This document shows positions 3,431-34,696 of a stretch of DNA of 36,804 bases, piece by piece (position 1 is the stretch's first letter; every line of letters begins with the position of its first letter). The DNA comes from a virus: positions 1-36,804 of the IMG/VR virus record IMGVR_UViG_3300030099_007345, one strand, 5' to 3'. The notes beneath the pieces are model-generated. The model saw only the letters and a list, made by a program, of their open reading frames with translations. It made no database searches and was not told where the DNA came from. The position numbers and the translations under genes are program-made.

Positions 3431-3646
3431 CTATTTATTCTGTTTTAGAATTAGTTCTTTCAATAATTCTATCTCACCCTTCAATCTATCTATTTCATCT
3501 CTTTGAGATAAACGTGCATTTTTTTCATTCATGTACCGTTTATACGCTGCACTATCATTATTTACTATCGCTGTCGTCCTTACATCCCTCATCAGTGAGG
3601 GATGATTCTCGACTTTTATTTTTTTCGATGATCGGGTAATTCTCAT
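3431..3646 (-). CDS. 71-aa basic/coiled-coil small protein
   Basis: Starts at ATG 3646, preceded by a strong GGAGGG ribosome binding site at 7-nt spacing, which decides the start. The first half is basic (MRITRSSKKIKV). The second half, from about residue 45, is an amphipathic helix with heptad leucines and isoleucines (RLKGEIELLKELILKQ) that should form a coiled coil. Its 5' half is overlapped in another frame by the 45-aa reading frame that starts at 3695. It belongs to the small-protein cluster between the DUF4815 protein and the fibre genes. No named family is recognised. Confidence 0.7.
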   Translation of the reverse strand: MRITRSSKKIKVENHPSLMRDVRTTAIVNNDSAAYKRYMNEKNARLSQRDEIDRLKGEIELLKELILKQNK

Positions 3647-3695
3647 CGAGAGTGCCCTCCAATACTTCTGCTGCTAGTGACCATGCGTTTATCAT
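3558..3695 (-). CDS. 45-aa overlapping small ORF, probably translated
   Basis: The ATG complementary to 3693-3695 overlaps the TGA of the 66-aa gene as ATGA, the junction type used throughout this operon. The frame runs to a TAA at 3558-3560 and overlaps the first 89 nt of the 71-aa gene in a different frame. The product begins MINAWSLAAEVLEGTL and is acidic and serine-rich at the end. The helical N-A-W-x-L-A-x-E-x-L-E-G start looks protein-like rather than random. No clear ribosome binding site precedes it, so expression would depend on coupling. It could also be a chance frame. Confidence 0.45.
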   Translation of the reverse strand: MINAWSLAAEVLEGTLDENYPIIEKNKSRESSLTDEGCKDDSDSK

Positions 3696-3892
3696 GTTGT
3701 AATTTTTTTAGATTGTTTTTTTACAAAATCCCTAGGAAGACCATGCTTAAATTTCCATACGTCTAATCCCTTTTTCTTTATGTCAGGTGTGATAACAAAA
3801 GGTGTATCACGAGGATAAGCAGATCTCCCAAGAGTATAATTTGGAGTCGTATAGTCAGATGAGTCTGAGAGAAATTGTTTGAATGTCTTCAT
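3692..3892 (-). CDS. 66-aa small protein (MKTFKQFL start), function unknown
   Basis: A basic 66-aa protein beginning MKTFKQFLSDSSDY and ending in a lysine-rich tail (VKKQSKKITT). The MKTFKQFL beginning recurs in several small or prohead-related proteins of T4-like cyanophages, which is family knowledge and not evidence of function. There is no membrane segment. Its ATG shares one base with the stop of the DUF4815 gene (TAATG) and its stop overlaps the next short frame (ATGA), so it is coupled on both sides within the late structural operon. Confidence 0.65.
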   Translation of the reverse strand: MKTFKQFLSDSSDYTTPNYTLGRSAYPRDTPFVITPDIKKKGLDVWKFKHGLPRDFVKKQSKKITT

Positions 3893-6800
3893 TATGCCAC
3901 AGCAATTGCTCTGAAGTCAAGTAATTGAGGAACTTGTGCTTGATTGATTGATGATAAACAAACTTTTACTTGGAACCCTGTAAATGGTGGTAGATTATTT
4001 TTGGTAAATTCATACTCTAAGAATTGATCTTCAAGACTTGGAACTACATTCCTGTCAGGTCTACCACTATTATTTTTTTCAGAGATAACAAACCCAGATG
4101 AATCAAGATTTTCAAAACCAGGCATCAATTCAAACACTTTATCAAGCGAATCAGTATCTGCTCTAAACAATCTGTACAACACTCTTATATCTGCAGCTGG
4201 TGGTCTAAACGCAGCAAATAATACCTTAAGTGATGTAGCAGGGTTCTCCAACATGATGACTTTTGTTTGATATAGATTATCATGTGGGTCATCAAGTTGA
4301 TTTGCCTTACTGCTTTGAGCGTAATTACCAACTGGACTATTTATTCTGTGAGTTGACACATTTATTGAACTCTTGAATGCGTCAATAACGGGAGAGACAT
4401 TTTCATTATCTGTAGATAAATTCAAGTCCAGTGTCATTGATTTTTCACCTGGCAATGCATTCAGTTGTGCTGATTCATTTACCTTAGATGCAACCATTCT
4501 TACATTTGGGAACTCAGTTTTATTGACAAGTGATATATCTTCATATCCTCTGTCAGCGAATGATGCTTCACCTCCGCTTATACTTGTTCCTGATGTGGTT
4601 CTCAAACTTGCCTCAATAGTGGTGCCCTTAGGTATACTATGAGAGACAACTGGTGTTGCACTGTCAAATACAATATTTGCAGATCCCTTTCCTCTGGTTC
4701 CTCCACCTGGTTTATCTTTTGAGAACAATTTAGAACCAGTTATCTTCACATGATATGTGTCTGCTGTTACCTTTTCATCTATTGTTGTGGATACGTTTAT
4801 GAGAGAGTGTTCCGTATTAATTTTCCTAAGAGATACACCAGATAATTCATACTTCTGAACAGGTGTGCCTATAGGGTAGCTCCTTGCAAAAGTATTATCA
4901 TTACCACGTGTAATTGTACCACTCAATTGATTAGTACCTACAGATGTATATTGAATCACTTCATCTCCTATCAATGCAAAACCAGGATTGCTTGATGTGA
5001 CTTGCTCTCCTTCAAAGAAATTGAATCCAGTGCTACTTGCAACACTTACAATACTTGTTTCACTATTACCATAAGCAACGGTAGTTTTTGTAGGCACAGT
5101 ATCACCTGTTATACCTTTCAATGAAACTGTATTATTGTCTGAATAATTACCATGATTAGGATGTGTAACCTTGAAATGTAGACCATCAAATTGATCAGTG
5201 TTTGTTGTTACTGTGGATGGTATTATGTTATCAACAGTTACACCATAACCAAGAGTTGCGTCATGATATTGTATTGGGTTTGTTGTGTCAAATGTACCCT
5301 TACTGTTAGTAAGTAGAAGTGAATTCACACCAGTGGTAACACCAACTGTAAGTAAAAGATTTTGTCCCAAACCTTTAGTTCCAAGGGAAGCAGTCAATGT
5401 ATCACCAACTTGATATCCTGTTCCAGTGTTGTCACCAATTATAGTAACTTGTGTAACAACACCACTAGATACGGTTACAATACCAACAGCTCCTGATCCT
5501 GATCCAGTGAGATTTACAAAACTGACGCTAGAATAAGTAGCATCTTCATAATTTGCACCACCATTTGTAATGACTAAAGTATTTGCTGCTTGACCAAGAT
5601 GCCCAAGTTTCGCTGCCACAACACCTGATGCTCCCGAATTGTCATCTTGAAGTATTTCTGTGCCAAGATCTATGATACCATCACCAATCGCAGAACTCAA
5701 TCCTACCGTCACACGTTTTGAAAATGTTTCTATGGGATTCTCTGGCAAATCATTTCTATTGTCAAATGTGTCAAGTTGAGGGTTGTAAAAACGAGCTGTT
5801 CCATTATTCAGTGTAAATTTTGCTTTTCTTGCGGTATACTTCATGTCCTCCAACTGAGAAGGAGTCCATGTTCCAGACGTTTGACCCTTGAATAAAGAAC
5901 CCAGAGACGGTTGTTTCGTCACAATGACTTTTCCAAGTTCCGTGTTATCGGCTGTAGATATGTCAGCCTCACCTATTTGACATATCCATTGATTATATTC
6001 TCTCGTTGAGGTAACAACAATGAAGGCATATTCACCTGCAGGTAGATATATCGGAGATCTAAATGTAAACGTTGTCGGCACAGTGGCATCGTCCGACACA
6101 CTTACTTGATCTGGGTTCAAGACCACACCACTATTTTTGACGACATTTCTTGATGGATACCCATTCACAACGTTTGCTACCCTCAATTCAATAGGGACAG
6201 TCTCGGATTTTGTAGCGAAGAAGAAATCAACGGAAGTCATGAAAATGCCAGGATTTTCTTCTACAAAAAATGTTTGTGCGAGTGGGTCATCATCCAACTC
6301 TGGTGGTGGAGAATTATCTACAACTGCTCGTTGTTCTACTGTAATATTATTTGTTATGTTTGTAATATTGATTATTACTGGTTCTGGTATAACGGGTGGA
6401 GCAGGTTCTGTTCTCTCTAGTGTAGTCTCAGTTACGAGAGTTCCCTCTGAGAAATGATCTGCTGCAGCTCTAGAGAAATTCAAACCAGGATATGCATCCT
6501 GTGGTCTCAAACTTGCTAATAAGGCAGTGTTTGTACCATTCTCAAATCTATCTGGTGGAATGTAATAAGCACCAAGCACTGCACCAAAATCATCTGTTAT
6601 AAGTCTTATCTGATTAATTTCTGCTTCAGCACCACTTGTTTCACCCACTAATCTCATACCGACTAGAGCGAATCCAAAGAAGTTACCATCCGATTTTTGA
6701 TTCAATGATTGAATGTCTACGTTCAATACTGTTGTAGTTTCAGAGTATGCAGACGATAAACCGACGTTAGCAACATATGGATTATTTGAAAATACGAGTG

Positions 6801-27566: not shown

Positions 27567-28215
27567 CTATCAACTCAATGATTTTATTTGCTATTACTTT
27601 GTGTCCTTCTGCACTTGGATGCCCACCAGATAGACCATTTGCATAATAATTTGGGTTTTCTTTAGTATGTTGTAATAAACCCATATGCATCCATACTGGT
27701 TCATAATCTTTACATAAACCTCTCCAATATCCGTTTCCAAATTTATAGAACTTTTCTGGTTTTCTGATTGATGGGTCAAAGTGATCTGCTACTAATGAAA
27801 TATACTTTTGACCAACACTCTTACAATATGCATCAAATAGAAAAATGTTTTTCCACATATTTTCCACACCTAACACTTCATTATATACTTTTGTATAATA
27901 ATCTCTATGAGTTTGCTTCAACTCAGGTGGTATGAATGTAGGTTGGATTGTAAATCTACAAATTTTTTCATTTACTTGATAATACTCCATTCTTGACGCT
28001 ACTGTAAATTGTATGATAACTACGTCTGGATTATAATTTTGAAGATACTTGATAGCATTCCTAACAATATTATCATTACTAATACCACGTTCTGATAAGT
28101 TATAATGTTGACATCCATAATGATTAGAAACAAGAGTGCTATATCTCTCATTCAACCTATCTTCTAATTCATCCCCCCATGTGATGCTACACCCACTAAA
28201 AAATAGTGACATCAT
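27556..28215 (-). CDS. SGNH/GDSL-type hydrolase (paralogue 1)
   Basis: A 219-aa protein. Block I is FSGCSITWGDEL with the probable nucleophile Ser10. Block II-like NIVRN lies near residues 49-53. Block V is GGHPSAEGHKVIA with the probable catalytic His199. The usual Asp three residues before that His is Ser here, so the triad may be a Ser-His dyad or use another acid. SGNH enzymes cleave or transfer acyl groups on sugars and lipids. The start overlaps the carbamoyltransferase stop by 20 nt. The pairing of a carbamoyltransferase with an SGNH protein is a recurrent bacterial arrangement linked to polysaccharide decoration. No signal peptide is visible, so it would act in the cytoplasm. Confidence 0.75.
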   Translation of the reverse strand: MMSLFFSGCSITWGDELEDRLNERYSTLVSNHYGCQHYNLSERGISNDNIVRNAIKYLQNYNPDVVIIQFTVASRMEYYQVNEKICRFTIQPTFIPPELKQTHRDYYTKVYNEVLGVENMWKNIFLFDAYCKSVGQKYISLVADHFDPSIRKPEKFYKFGNGYWRGLCKDYEPVWMHMGLLQHTKENPNYYANGLSGGHPSAEGHKVIANKIIELIDTI

Positions 28216-29572
28216 ACTTCATCTCAAATAATTTTGCATCTTCGATTGTATTTACCATAGGTTTTCCTTTTATATTCAGTGATGTGTTTAACAATACAGG
28301 ACAACCAGTACGAGCGTACCATGCCTCTAGAATCGGTCTCAAGATGCTTATTGATTCTTTAGGAACCGTTTGTACCCTCGCACTATTATCGACGTGTATA
28401 CAAGCAGGTATCGCCTTTGGTTGCTTACACTTATAGACATAGGACATGTATCTCGATGAGGAAGGCATATCAAAGTAGTCCTGACAATGCTCCTCCAAAA
28501 CTGCAGGGGCAAAGGGTCTGAATTTATCTCGTCGTTTGATTTCATTTACTAAGTCTTTTGTGCTCGCTTGCCTTGGATCCGCCAGTAAACTTCGATTACC
28601 AAAAGCACGAGGACCATACTCAGCACGGCCATTCGCAACCCCCACGACTCTTTTTTCGAGGAGTTCATCTACAACTCTCCTTGGATCACATAACTTTTGT
28701 ATATTATATCCTAGGTAAGGATTGAAATCAACCTTGCCACCATATGCAAGACATGCTGCCCCCAGAGCACCCCCTGCGTCGCCAGGACAAGGCATAATCC
28801 AAAGATTATACATTTCCCTCAACCCTGTGTTTACAACACAATTCAAGGCAACACCACCACCATAACAGATGTTATTACTATACTTTGCTGCTTTTGCGAA
28901 TATAGTGTTTAGTTCTAATTGAAGTATTCTCTCAGCACTCTTTGCGATATCACACTTATCATAATTTCCAATCCTCGCTCCTTTATGGTTGTTTCTATGC
29001 AATTGTCGCTCAACCACATTCATATGGGTTGGATTACCATATGCTGCCATTCCCATAAAGATATACTCTTCATCTAAAGGACGCAATCCCGCCCACTTGG
29101 TAAGTGCAGAATACCATAACCCTATAGATTGCGGATACCACTGCGACCATACCTTCTTGTATACTGCCTTTCCTTCTTTGTACTTCGCAGTCCATATAGA
29201 TGTAGTATCCCACTCACCTATACTGTCTACTACCACACAAGCTGCTTCTTCAAACTGTGAAGTCTGAAACGTTGCTGCTGCGTGTGATTTATGATGACTA
29301 TGATATTCAGTGGGTTTAAGAGATAGGTGTCTTTCCCTATACCACGCTTTCTGCCCTGCAAAAAATTGTCTTGTTTTTTTCAACCATGGTCTTTCGTAAA
29401 ACGCTATCTTACCGTCAGTTGATAAAAGTCTTGCTGTAGATGCTGCTGTGACATCTAAATGCTTGTCATGTTTCTTTTTAGAGTATCTTTCTGAGTGTGT
29501 TGCATAACAAATCTTTCCATCATTGACAACAGCTACTGCTGCGTCATGAAAACCTTCACTAAAACCAATCAT
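28196..29572 (-). CDS. NodU/TobZ-family carbamoyltransferase
   Basis: A 458-aa protein. The N-terminal ASKHA/Kae1-like domain starts MIGFSEGFHDAAVAVVNDGK and carries ERYSKKKHD near residues 28-36 and HHKSHAA near 91-98 (metal-binding His). GGGVALNC near 235 and PGDAGGALGAA near 261 are the nucleotide-binding loops. The C-terminal carbamoyl-adenylate domain has NGRAEYGPRAFGNRSLLADP at about 312-331 and NTSLNIKGKPMV near 430, both family hallmarks. The reaction is transfer of carbamoyl from carbamoyl phosphate via ATP to a sugar hydroxyl. At 458 aa it is shorter than the usual 550-600 aa; the domain core looks intact. The gene follows a 29-aa peptide by 3 nt and overlaps an SGNH hydrolase. The substrate is unknown. 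Confidence 0.9.
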   Translation of the reverse strand: MIGFSEGFHDAAVAVVNDGKICYATHSERYSKKKHDKHLDVTAASTARLLSTDGKIAFYERPWLKKTRQFFAGQKAWYRERHLSLKPTEYHSHHKSHAAATFQTSQFEEAACVVVDSIGEWDTTSIWTAKYKEGKAVYKKVWSQWYPQSIGLWYSALTKWAGLRPLDEEYIFMGMAAYGNPTHMNVVERQLHRNNHKGARIGNYDKCDIAKSAERILQLELNTIFAKAAKYSNNICYGGGVALNCVVNTGLREMYNLWIMPCPGDAGGALGAACLAYGGKVDFNPYLGYNIQKLCDPRRVVDELLEKRVVGVANGRAEYGPRAFGNRSLLADPRQASTKDLVNEIKRRDKFRPFAPAVLEEHCQDYFDMPSSSRYMSYVYKCKQPKAIPACIHVDNSARVQTVPKESISILRPILEAWYARTGCPVLLNTSLNIKGKPMVNTIEDAKLFEMKYDVTIF

Positions 29573-33142: not shown

Positions 33143-33171
33143 TTGACAACTTTTATTACTTGATATATAAT
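33143..33171 (+). promoter_or_regulatory. consensus sigma-70 (early-type) promoter
   Basis: TTGACA at 33143-33148, exactly 17 bp spacing, TATAAT at 33166-33171: both hexamers match the bacterial consensus fully. Transcription should start near 33178. In T4-like cyanophages early genes use host sigma-70 promoters while late ones use the TATAAATA type, so this unit is probably early. Confidence 0.85.
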
Positions 33172-33392
33172 AATTTATGTAAGGGGGCGACGGTTCTCTT
33201 ACAGGGAGTGACTGAATAACCCTGTTGGAATTAGGCGGGGTAATGTAAACGGTCAGGGGTGGTGCCCGCTTCTTCGGAAGAACTTCTTACCAGAAGGACT
33301 GTTGTTGTAATGTACTAATTTTCGCACTAGCGATTCCCATTACTTGTAGGTAAAATGTATTCCTACCTCCCACCTCACACTATGGAGTTTTG

Positions 33393-33470
33393 ATGCTATT
33401 ATTTTTATTGATTTGTATAATAGCGGTGTTGTACTTTGTAGTGTTCTTAAACAAGTTTGATCCTCATTGA
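33393..33470 (+). CDS. 25-aa single-span membrane peptide, possible leader peptide
   Basis: ATG 33393 follows a GGAG site (33384-33387) at 5-nt spacing. The first 19 residues are almost entirely hydrophobic (MLLFLLICIIAVLYFVVF), followed by a short polar end N-K-F-D-P-H. This is the composition of a one-span membrane microprotein. The last codons and the TGA fall inside the terminator hairpin, so a ribosome finishing the peptide would cover the 5' arm. It resembles the next peptide at both ends, so they are probably paralogues. No known family is recognised; the small one-span photosystem subunits are similar only in size. Confidence 0.6.
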   Translation: MLLFLLICIIAVLYFVVFLNKFDPH

Positions 33471-33500
33471 TAGAAGGGGGGTCAAACTTTTTTTCTTTTT
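33455..33500 (+). terminator. strong intrinsic terminator or attenuator
   Basis: The 5' arm at 33455-33465 starts GTTTGATCC; the 3' arm at 33477-33487 ends GGGTCAAAC. They form about 11 bp with two G-U pairs, then TTTTTTTCTTTTT (33488-33500). It lies after the 25-aa peptide gene and before the 29-aa peptide and sulfotransferase genes, so it either ends a small transcript or controls read-through into the operon. Confidence 0.8.
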
Positions 33501-33506
33501 ATTATT

Positions 33507-33596
33507 ATGCCTTTATTCCTAATCGTTCTTGGTGCCTCTTCTGTAGGTGCTGCCATTGCTTTATACATAATTCGTAAGTACGATCCTCATGCATGA
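33507..33596 (+). CDS. 29-aa single-span membrane peptide coupled to sulfotransferase D
   Basis: ATG 33507 to TGA 33594-33596; the TGA overlaps the ATG of sulfotransferase D (ATGA). The product starts MPLFLIVLGASSVGAAIALY, a hydrophobic span with small residues (G-A-S-S-V-G-A-A) that favour helix packing, and ends I-I-R-K-Y-D-P-H-A. The end matches the K-F-D-P-H of the preceding peptide, and the DNA is also similar there (AAGTnnGATCCTCAT in both). No Shine-Dalgarno is seen; the upstream region is a T-rich tract. It may serve both as a membrane peptide and as a coupling device for gene D. Confidence 0.6.
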   Translation: MPLFLIVLGASSVGAAIALYIIRKYDPHA

Positions 33597-33597
33597 G
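33586..33597. repeat. 12-bp perfect palindrome over a stop/start overlap
   Basis: CTCATGCATGAG covers the end of the 29-aa peptide gene, its TGA and the ATG of sulfotransferase D. It may be a mere by-product of the codons, or an operator or hairpin that affects coupling. Confidence 0.4.
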
Positions 33598-34696
33598 AAA
33601 ATTACTTTTATTTTGTGGGTGGGGTTGGACAGCATCATCACCCCTGATATATACTCTTCAACGATATTCTAAGTATGCTCATTTTGGATATTCAAAAACT
33701 TTTAGATATCTAGCATACCCTTATTATAAAGATGGAAAATTGCTTTTCAAGTCTTCACCTAGTGTACCATTTTTACTTGAAAAACATATTGAAGGGACAT
33801 GGGAAAATTTTAGGTCTCTTGAACCATCTAGTCATAGAATGAATACCACTGAGGATTTACAACCACTCAGTGATTTTTCTCTTGATCATGCAAAAAGACT
33901 TATAGAAGGTGAACCTTCTATATCAAAATTCATGGACTTCTACATCGCACTTCACGATCACGTAGTCTCTAAAGGTTATAAGTCTGTGGGTCACTGTGGT
34001 TGTTATAAAACATTTAAGCGTGGTTGGAACTATTATGATAAAGATGCTGATGGCGAATTAGGACAAAACGCAATACGTGAATTTATAAAAATACTTTTAT
34101 CTGAATTTGAGGTGAAGTGTTTGTTTTTAGTGAGAGATCCTATTCGTCGTGCCTTTGGTAAATATCTAAATTGGATGCAAGGGATATCAGACCTTAGATT
34201 TCGTAATGTTTTCAAGAAAGATTTTTTCCTCCCTCATGAGTTAGAAGTTGCAGATTATGTTACGAAGATTGATTATTGCTATAACACATATGGTAAAGAT
34301 AATGTTCATGTCGCTGTCATGGAAGAACTATGGGAAGGTGATGGATCTGCTAAGAAAAAACTTTCGCAGTTCTTGGATCATCCTATTGACACCCTGTGGA
34401 AAAACCTGTATGCACCTGATATAGGGCACTTTGTAAAATATGATAAGGATGTTCCCTGTCAAGCATATGGACAGAACTTAGTTGAACTTAAGTCTGATGT
34501 GTACTATGAATTGAAGAACAAGTATCAATATGTCTATGATAATTGGAGAAATAAGTTTGGATCACTACCTCTACACTGGGGAAAACACATAGATTATGAA
34601 AAGGATAAGTCAATATTACAAGAGTGGGAGTTCATCACACCTAGTTGTGGTTATGAGGGCGTTTCTCAATATAACCCACATGACAAAAGAAGTTGA
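33593..34696 (+). CDS. sulfotransferase paralogue D (divergent, 367 aa)
   Basis: GWGWTASSPL at residues 9-18 is the phosphosulfate loop and CLFLVRDPIRRAFG near 176-189 the 3'-phosphate region. It has a larger insert between them (residues about 40-120) than the other paralogues, and its C-terminal block is altered (LYAPDIGHFVKYDKDVP instead of YYP-x-x-G-x-x-A-P-H), though FGSLPLHWGKH remains. A 40-residue tail follows. It starts at the ATGA overlap with the 29-aa membrane peptide and ends overlapping the kinase-like gene (TTGA). The substrate is unknown; its separation into another operon suggests a different acceptor or timing. Confidence 0.7.
   Translation: MRKLLLFCGWGWTASSPLIYTLQRYSKYAHFGYSKTFRYLAYPYYKDGKLLFKSSPSVPFLLEKHIEGTWENFRSLEPSSHRMNTTEDLQPLSDFSLDHAKRLIEGEPSISKFMDFYIALHDHVVSKGYKSVGHCGCYKTFKRGWNYYDKDADGELGQNAIREFIKILLSEFEVKCLFLVRDPIRRAFGKYLNWMQGISDLRFRNVFKKDFFLPHELEVADYVTKIDYCYNTYGKDNVHVAVMEELWEGDGSAKKKLSQFLDHPIDTLWKNLYAPDIGHFVKYDKDVPCQAYGQNLVELKSDVYYELKNKYQYVYDNWRNKFGSLPLHWGKHIDYEKDKSILQEWEFITPSCGYEGVSQYNPHDKRS

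Follow-up and report, generated by a model that had tools for sequence, protein, structure and literature searches.

The DNA analysed here, called the window throughout, is a stretch of 36,804 nucleotides (IMG/VR virus record IMGVR_UViG_3300030099_007345) in which a promoter, a densely folded RNA, a very short ORF, an intrinsic terminator overlapping its end and a second very short ORF follow one another upstream of a longer reading frame (Table 1). Outside this block the window aligns to tail genes of T4-like cyanophages; a Nol-like carbamoyltransferase gene, a metabolic passenger, lies at 28196-29572 on the minus strand (PF16861, PF02543, phrog_1601). The original prediction, made from the letters without database searches, had regarded the block as a structured RNA of unknown class, whereas it is the manA RNA (RF01745) of a T4-like cyanophage, a class published in 2010, as the available text of PMC2864571 documents.

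Table 1. Features of the manA block in the window and of the reading frames that follow it
Feature	Position	Strand	Remarks
sigma-70 promoter TTGACA-17-TATAAT	33143-33171	+	12/12 consensus positions; predicted +1 at about 33178
manA RNA RF01745	33178-33376	+	model covers 33180-33376
First helix, 11 bp	33178-33203	+	MFE fold, 33178-33188 / 33193-33203; begins at predicted +1; corresponds to first manA helix
Domain closed by long-range helix GGGAG 33204-33208 / CUCCC 33367-33371	33204-33371	+	MFE fold; strands covary in relatives
UUCG-capped hairpin CUUC-UUCG-GAAG	33269-33280	+	fold
12-bp stem 33377-33388 / 33433-33444	33377-33444	+	MFE fold; predicted to bury GGAG 33384-33387 of the 25-codon ORF
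25-codon ORF MLLFLLICIIAVLYFVVFLNKFDPH	33393-33470	+	one hydrophobic stretch; predicted membrane peptide
Intrinsic terminator	33453-33496	+	stem 33453-33465 / 33477-33489 and T-run; 5' arm overlaps end of 25-codon ORF
29-codon ORF MPLFLIVLGASSVGAAIALYIIRKYDPHA	33507-33596	+	beyond terminator; 83% identical peptide after manA in L037
367-aa ORF	33593-34696	+	neighbour, outside the RNA

The manA copy of the window

The covariance search against Rfam that had been suggested as a check was performed with cmscan on the whole window, and its sole match above cut-off is manA on the plus strand, with a score of 128.9 bits against a gathering cut-off of 55.2 and over the full length of the model (positions 1-192 of 192). 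This score is lower than that of most relatives, and two non-standard pairs are flagged in the alignment to the model, the consensus helices being otherwise present, the long-range closing helix included. The structure is beyond chance, because the match to the manA model has an E-value of 1.6e-33 over the whole window; moreover, folding of 33178-33500 on this strand gives -102 kcal/mol (z -3.85), a stability reached by 0 of 100 shuffles, so that the dense folding noticed by eye, with its UUCG hairpin, is borne out, as is the full-consensus promoter. The model-free thermodynamic fold has the same outer architecture as manA, that is the 11-bp 5' hairpin and the GGGAG/CUCCC closing helix. The two mutually exclusive stems that had been pointed out are both present in the letters (TGTAAG 33178-33183 with CTTACA 33198-33203; ACAGGG 33201-33206 with CCCTGT 33220-33225); as a conserved switch they were rejected, because an exact 6-bp equivalent occurs in only 2 of the 198 listed manA loci.

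Directly after manA the window copy has neither a U-run nor the 3' hairpin domain described below. The predicted 12-bp stem covers the GGAG of the 25-codon ORF with pairing probabilities of 0.96-1.0, and the terminator, whose stem and T-run are present as originally described, is located behind this ORF, about 80 nt 3' of manA; the terminator region 33446-33500 folded alone reaches -16.9 kcal/mol, and a pattern scanner with a loop limit of 8 did not list it. A transcript running to the terminator would include the 25-codon ORF, which is absent from the original prediction.

The two window peptides, of 25 and 29 aa, have the common ending K-F/Y-D-P-H, and neither matches a Pfam or PHROGs family above the curated cut-off. 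The 367-aa ORF, which from a motif we take by eye to be sulfotransferase-like, has no Pfam or PHROGs match. The same order is found at L037, on a 122-kb contig, where manA is followed by a stem with T-run, the 83% identical peptide of 29 aa and an ORF of similar appearance. Very small membrane peptides with a single helix, 25-29 aa long and with the ending [KR][FY]DPH, are encoded in the window and at L037:10642 (+), L032:378 (-) and L239:7260 (-), and PHM1_045 of P-HM1 opens with the same MPLFLIVLGAS without the DPH ending. A regex search over the collected loci detected DPH peptides in four contigs (the window, L037, which equals L174, L032 and L239), and the peptide adjoins manA in the window and L037 alone; the idea that manA serves as a dedicated leader of these peptides was rejected as a general rule.

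Ends and helices of manA in relatives

The loci compared were collected by means of three exact core patterns in viral contigs, among the matches listed, and of BLAST matches to manA in phage records; the counts describe these loci, not all manA, and the loci are related by descent and not independent of one another. L348, which by eye is no manA, and L223, which repeats P-HM1, were left out before the counts. Removal of three loci that lack the complement of the closing helix (198 to 195) and of repeats of a 60-nt flank (195 to 141) gave the flank-distinct copies, and this filter also drops some neighbour-sharing pairs, equally on both sides. A narrow promoter test and a U-run count were based on the 102 loci with usable model coordinates, 99 of which have enough upstream sequence.

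The 5-mer that precedes UGAC covaries with its 3' partner: at the expected position in the listed loci, GGGAG is accompanied by CTCCC in 103 of 105, GGGTG by CACCC in 57 of 63 (CTCCC in 5) and GGATG by CATCC in 9 of 10, the tenth being L348, once loci are left out that have less than 200 nt 3' of the core or lack GGTGGT at 35-90 (120 to 105, 97 to 63 and 74 to 10). When the partner is accepted anywhere in the 3' stretch the counts are 105, 60 and 9, respectively, and 32 of the 105 GGGAG loci also contain CACCC there, mostly because CTCCCACCC holds both. Since the 5-mer and its partner change together, the pattern supports the pairing that was queried in 2010. According to the available text of PMC7779021, Rfam 14 gives 48 significant base pairs for the manA alignment, later restored.

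The 5' side of the 141 flank-distinct copies is occupied by a promoter in 127, by the 3' end of a tRNA in 11, by neither in one and by a contig edge in two; in fact, 127 of the 139 copies with upstream sequence have a sigma-70 promoter at the first helix, in the same arrangement as the window. In the narrow test a promoter with at least 9 of 12 positions and a -10 box ending 3-11 nt before the model start was found in 89 of 99 listed loci, compared with 2.9% of 4832 random positions. A wider scan of the 128 copies that have no tRNA link gave at least 9/12 in 127, at least 10/12 in 126 and at least 11/12 in 117, with random rates of 9.8%, 1.9% and 0.5%, respectively. The promoterless exception (L060) is preceded by a stretch that is tRNA-Gly-like by eye and was not called by ARAGORN. 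The -35 box of the manA promoter is often situated inside an upstream hairpin followed by T (GAGGGTTGACACCCTCTTTTTTT), for example in L013, L046 and P-SSM2 (L181), with letters shared as if the terminator of the upstream gene overlapped the manA promoter.

The 3' end of a tRNA abuts the 5' side of manA in 19 of the 198 listed loci, and by eye the first helix starts 0-1 nt after the preceding tRNA; a tRNA begins 3-18 nt past the closing helix in 18, and manA is placed between two tRNAs in 11 (7 counting identical flanks once). At least six T in the seven positions right after the closing helix are present in 38 of 102 listed loci (control 2.3%). Apart from those at a contig edge there are 139 flank-distinct copies; 72 of them, the window copy included, have after manA no U-run of that strength, no 3' domain and no near tRNA. 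Evidence on the 3' side that manA would have an end of its own is partial. Late promoters ([AC]TAAATA) follow manA in 25 of 139 cases and precede other ORFs in 75 of 626, which is not decisive.

A subset of manA copies carries directly at the 3' side a hairpin of about 39 nt, outside the RF01745 model, which is characterized by an outer stem GACC/GGUC, an internal loop UAAGA / GAU and a variable inner stem (for example L041:1150-1195 (-) and L018:3715-3765 (+)). Of the 141 flank-distinct copies, 23 have the motif behind manA. Viral contigs scanned for the motif alone gave at least 94 distinct stretches; among the 94 listed, a manA core is upstream in 71 and the manA 3' end is visible without the tested core in 6, that is 77 visibly behind manA, and the remaining 17 lie too close to the end of a contig for the core to be tested, the manA 3' end being readable by eye in 16 of them and L404 being cut. 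When the loop letters were not fixed, exactly UAAGA / GAU was kept in 13 of 14 structural matches; in 51 distinct forms one outer pair varies from G-C (40) to A-T (11). A U-run follows 32 of the 51 forms, and the reading of the hairpin CCTAAGATGC...GGGCAGATGG as no more than a terminator was rejected; a search of Rfam at the hairpin of one locus yielded only the 3' end of manA at E-values below 1.

Copy number, neighbours and distribution

Exactly one manA is present in each of 20 named cyanophage genome records and in the single-cell record AG-345-L05. Among the 141 records searched, 137 have one manA (below the family cut-off in G099), one contig has two and three have none, all three with the core within about 55 nt of the contig end; most viral contigs are short and part of the search used stricter filters, so that weak second copies could be missed. 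The contig with two copies (L078) holds them at 119-315 and 3636-3836, 3.3 kb apart, and is the only such case among these records.

The neighbours of manA are various. Upstream, the major head protein gene is found in P-HM1, MED4-213, P-RSM1, P-RSM4, S-TIM4 and S-SSM5, the gene after gp22, annotated gp24 precursor, in metaG-MbCM1, pstS in P-SSM3, P-SSM4, P-RSM3, S-SSM4 and S-SSM6b, and ferredoxin in P-SSM7. Downstream, talC is found in P-RSM6 and P-TIM40, and likewise in P-TIM68 behind an opposite-strand ORF, and tRNA-Gly in S-SSM7; in P-SSM2 the neighbours are regA then purL, and in S-CREM1 manA is part of a tRNA cluster. P-HM1 and P-HM2 bear the same species name in the records, and manA is after gp23 in the first and before gp32 in the second. 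The nearest ORFs of at least 60 aa at the flank-distinct loci fall into 44 downstream families (131 ORFs) and 60 upstream families. Pairs of manA that are 90-95% identical have a common downstream family in 17 of 339 and a common upstream family in 16 of 350, and pairs at least 95% identical share neighbours more (15 of 82 downstream, 29 of 86 upstream). To judge from these comparisons, manA is conserved and the genes on either side of it vary, and a consistent tie to particular downstream genes was not found.

The next ORF is co-oriented with manA in 121 of 125 cases (baseline 92%, p 0.07) and, when only ORFs of at least 100 aa are considered, in 99 of 100 (baseline 95%, p 0.07); one in four of the co-oriented ORFs has its start no more than 46 nt past the closing helix. 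On account of this co-orientation and proximity, some manA copies are probably joined to an mRNA. Small genes annotated as hypothetical protein overlap manA in L128 (PHM2_011, P-HM2), L179 (PHM1_121), L122 (SSSM7_180), L127 (SSSM5_127) and L183 (PSSM4_169.1), and may be annotation artefacts of the RNA; expression of PHM2_011 is not reported in the main text of PMC5082946, and its tag was not found in the literature. PMC5082946 deals with RNA-seq of P-HM2 infection and states that reads from intergenic regions were counted; in the P-HM2 record manA occupies 4771-4969.

With regard to distribution, manA was found in 0 of 8 further T4-like cyanophage genomes, and the same query matches other phage records. 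A host comparison was based on 16 of the 17 genomes of the accession list in the available text of PMC3037559, FM207411 being left out. Among these 16 genomes manA occurs in 6 of the 6 with Prochlorococcus as the host of isolation and in 2 of the 10 with Synechococcus (Fisher p 0.007), a skew of which shared ancestry may be the cause. Hosts were taken from the genome records except for syn9, whose record names none and which was tallied under the host we presume for it. An exact 16-mer matched 34 stretches in cellular genome contigs, 4 of which are manA; a cellular origin was rejected, as all manA stretches of cellular contigs align to cyanophage or marine-virus records. The 188-kb contig NZ_RMVE01000006.1 (L139), titled Nonlabens xiamenensis, is probably phage contamination, because 8 kb of it are 98.9% identical to cyanophage P-TIM40 throughout.

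A discrete RNA or a leader

In the available text of Weinberg et al. 2010 (PMC2864571) manA is presented as a candidate riboswitch from marine sequences and cyanophages, its pseudoknot being marked with a query, and that of the cyanophage paper PMC9964418 states that its regulatory role remains to be verified; no ligand was found in the portions of the manA literature available. The window copy shares with RF01745 the full-length sequence and structure as well as the cyanophage setting. The family is typed Cis-reg, whereas the contexts of the collected copies fit a discrete RNA at least as well and, at the level of sequence, argue against that label; the idea of a small RNA or riboregulator was apt in so far as manA has a conserved structure and a promoter to itself, and "small RNA" may turn out to be the better name.

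The interpretation that we favour, with a probability of roughly 0.55, is that manA is a discrete phage RNA that probably acts in trans. From the identity of the RNA, the promoter letters, the fold, the covariation and the contexts we infer transcription from the promoter, discreteness and action in trans. Host sigma-70 RNA polymerase would read manA from its near-perfect promoter, the RNA beginning at the first base of the 5' hairpin and folding into a compact domain that the GGGAG/CUCCC helix closes; manA would then act as a discrete molecule, perhaps on the translation/tRNA machinery or together with a protein, and would not be a sensor for whichever gene comes next. In the window the transcript probably continues to the terminator near 33496, carrying the ORF for the 25-codon membrane peptide. 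A promoter of its own with the RNA at the predicted +1, as expected of a stand-alone RNA, is seen in the letters of the window and of the relatives. The fuller formulation, to which we give an even chance, is that manA is a single-copy, trans-acting structured RNA of T4-like cyanophages and not a riboswitch, that its 5' end is set by tRNA processing or by the strong promoter in front of it, that it shifts in genome position independently of its neighbours, and that a subset bears the 3' hairpin domain (UAAGA / GAU) outside RF01745.

The Rfam view, in which manA is a cis-acting leader, perhaps a metabolite riboswitch, that controls the following transcription unit, is possible in our estimate and rather doubtful. 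It agrees with the published description of manA as common in potential 5' UTRs (PMC2864571, available text), with the position at the start of the transcript as deduced from the promoter, with the U-runs after 38 of 102 copies and with the ORFs starting within tens of nt, the co-orientation of the next ORF being a slight lean in its direction; in the window its target would be the 25-codon ORF, whose ribosome-binding site the predicted stem over GGAG would bury, or the passage of transcription through the terminator into the operon beyond. Against a leader are the lack of a preferred downstream gene even among near-identical RNAs, the presence of one copy per named genome record, and the fact that no shared expression platform was identified, the exact competing stem being limited to the 2 loci mentioned above; moreover, the order tRNA-manA-tRNA is difficult to square with an mRNA leader. 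That manA could be a generic 5' stabiliser or insulator of whichever early transcript it heads, with no sensing and no trans role, would account for the first helix at +1 and for the many different genes that come after it; we consider this very improbable, as about 190 nt of conserved structure exceed the needs of a cap, a stabiliser ought to be of use at several places in a genome and yet each named genome record has one copy, and inside tRNA arrays manA is not at the start of a transcript.

The stable RNAs C and D of phage T4 are small RNAs beside tRNA genes that are not known to have a role; their likeness to manA is one of description and does not imply relatedness. ROOL and GOLLD are presented in the available text of PMC12286853 as elaborate RNAs of phages that have no known function and often lie close to tRNA islands, with GOLLD members often above 800 nt; their genomic habit is similar to that of the tRNA-linked manA copies, whereas manA is only about 190 nt and most of its copies adjoin a promoter and not a tRNA, and neither has an Rfam match in the window. 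wcaG (RF01761) and PhotoRC-II (RF01717) are cyanophage structured RNAs typed Cis-reg like manA, from which they differ in family, and neither is in the window; PhotoRC-II is on the same contigs as manA in L036 and L139, and wcaG is in the tRNA region of S-CREM1 with manA.

If manA, proposed in 2010 as a riboswitch candidate, is a discrete RNA, the search for a ligand targets the wrong kind of object. The skew towards Prochlorococcus phages, which may reflect shared ancestry, suggests where to look.
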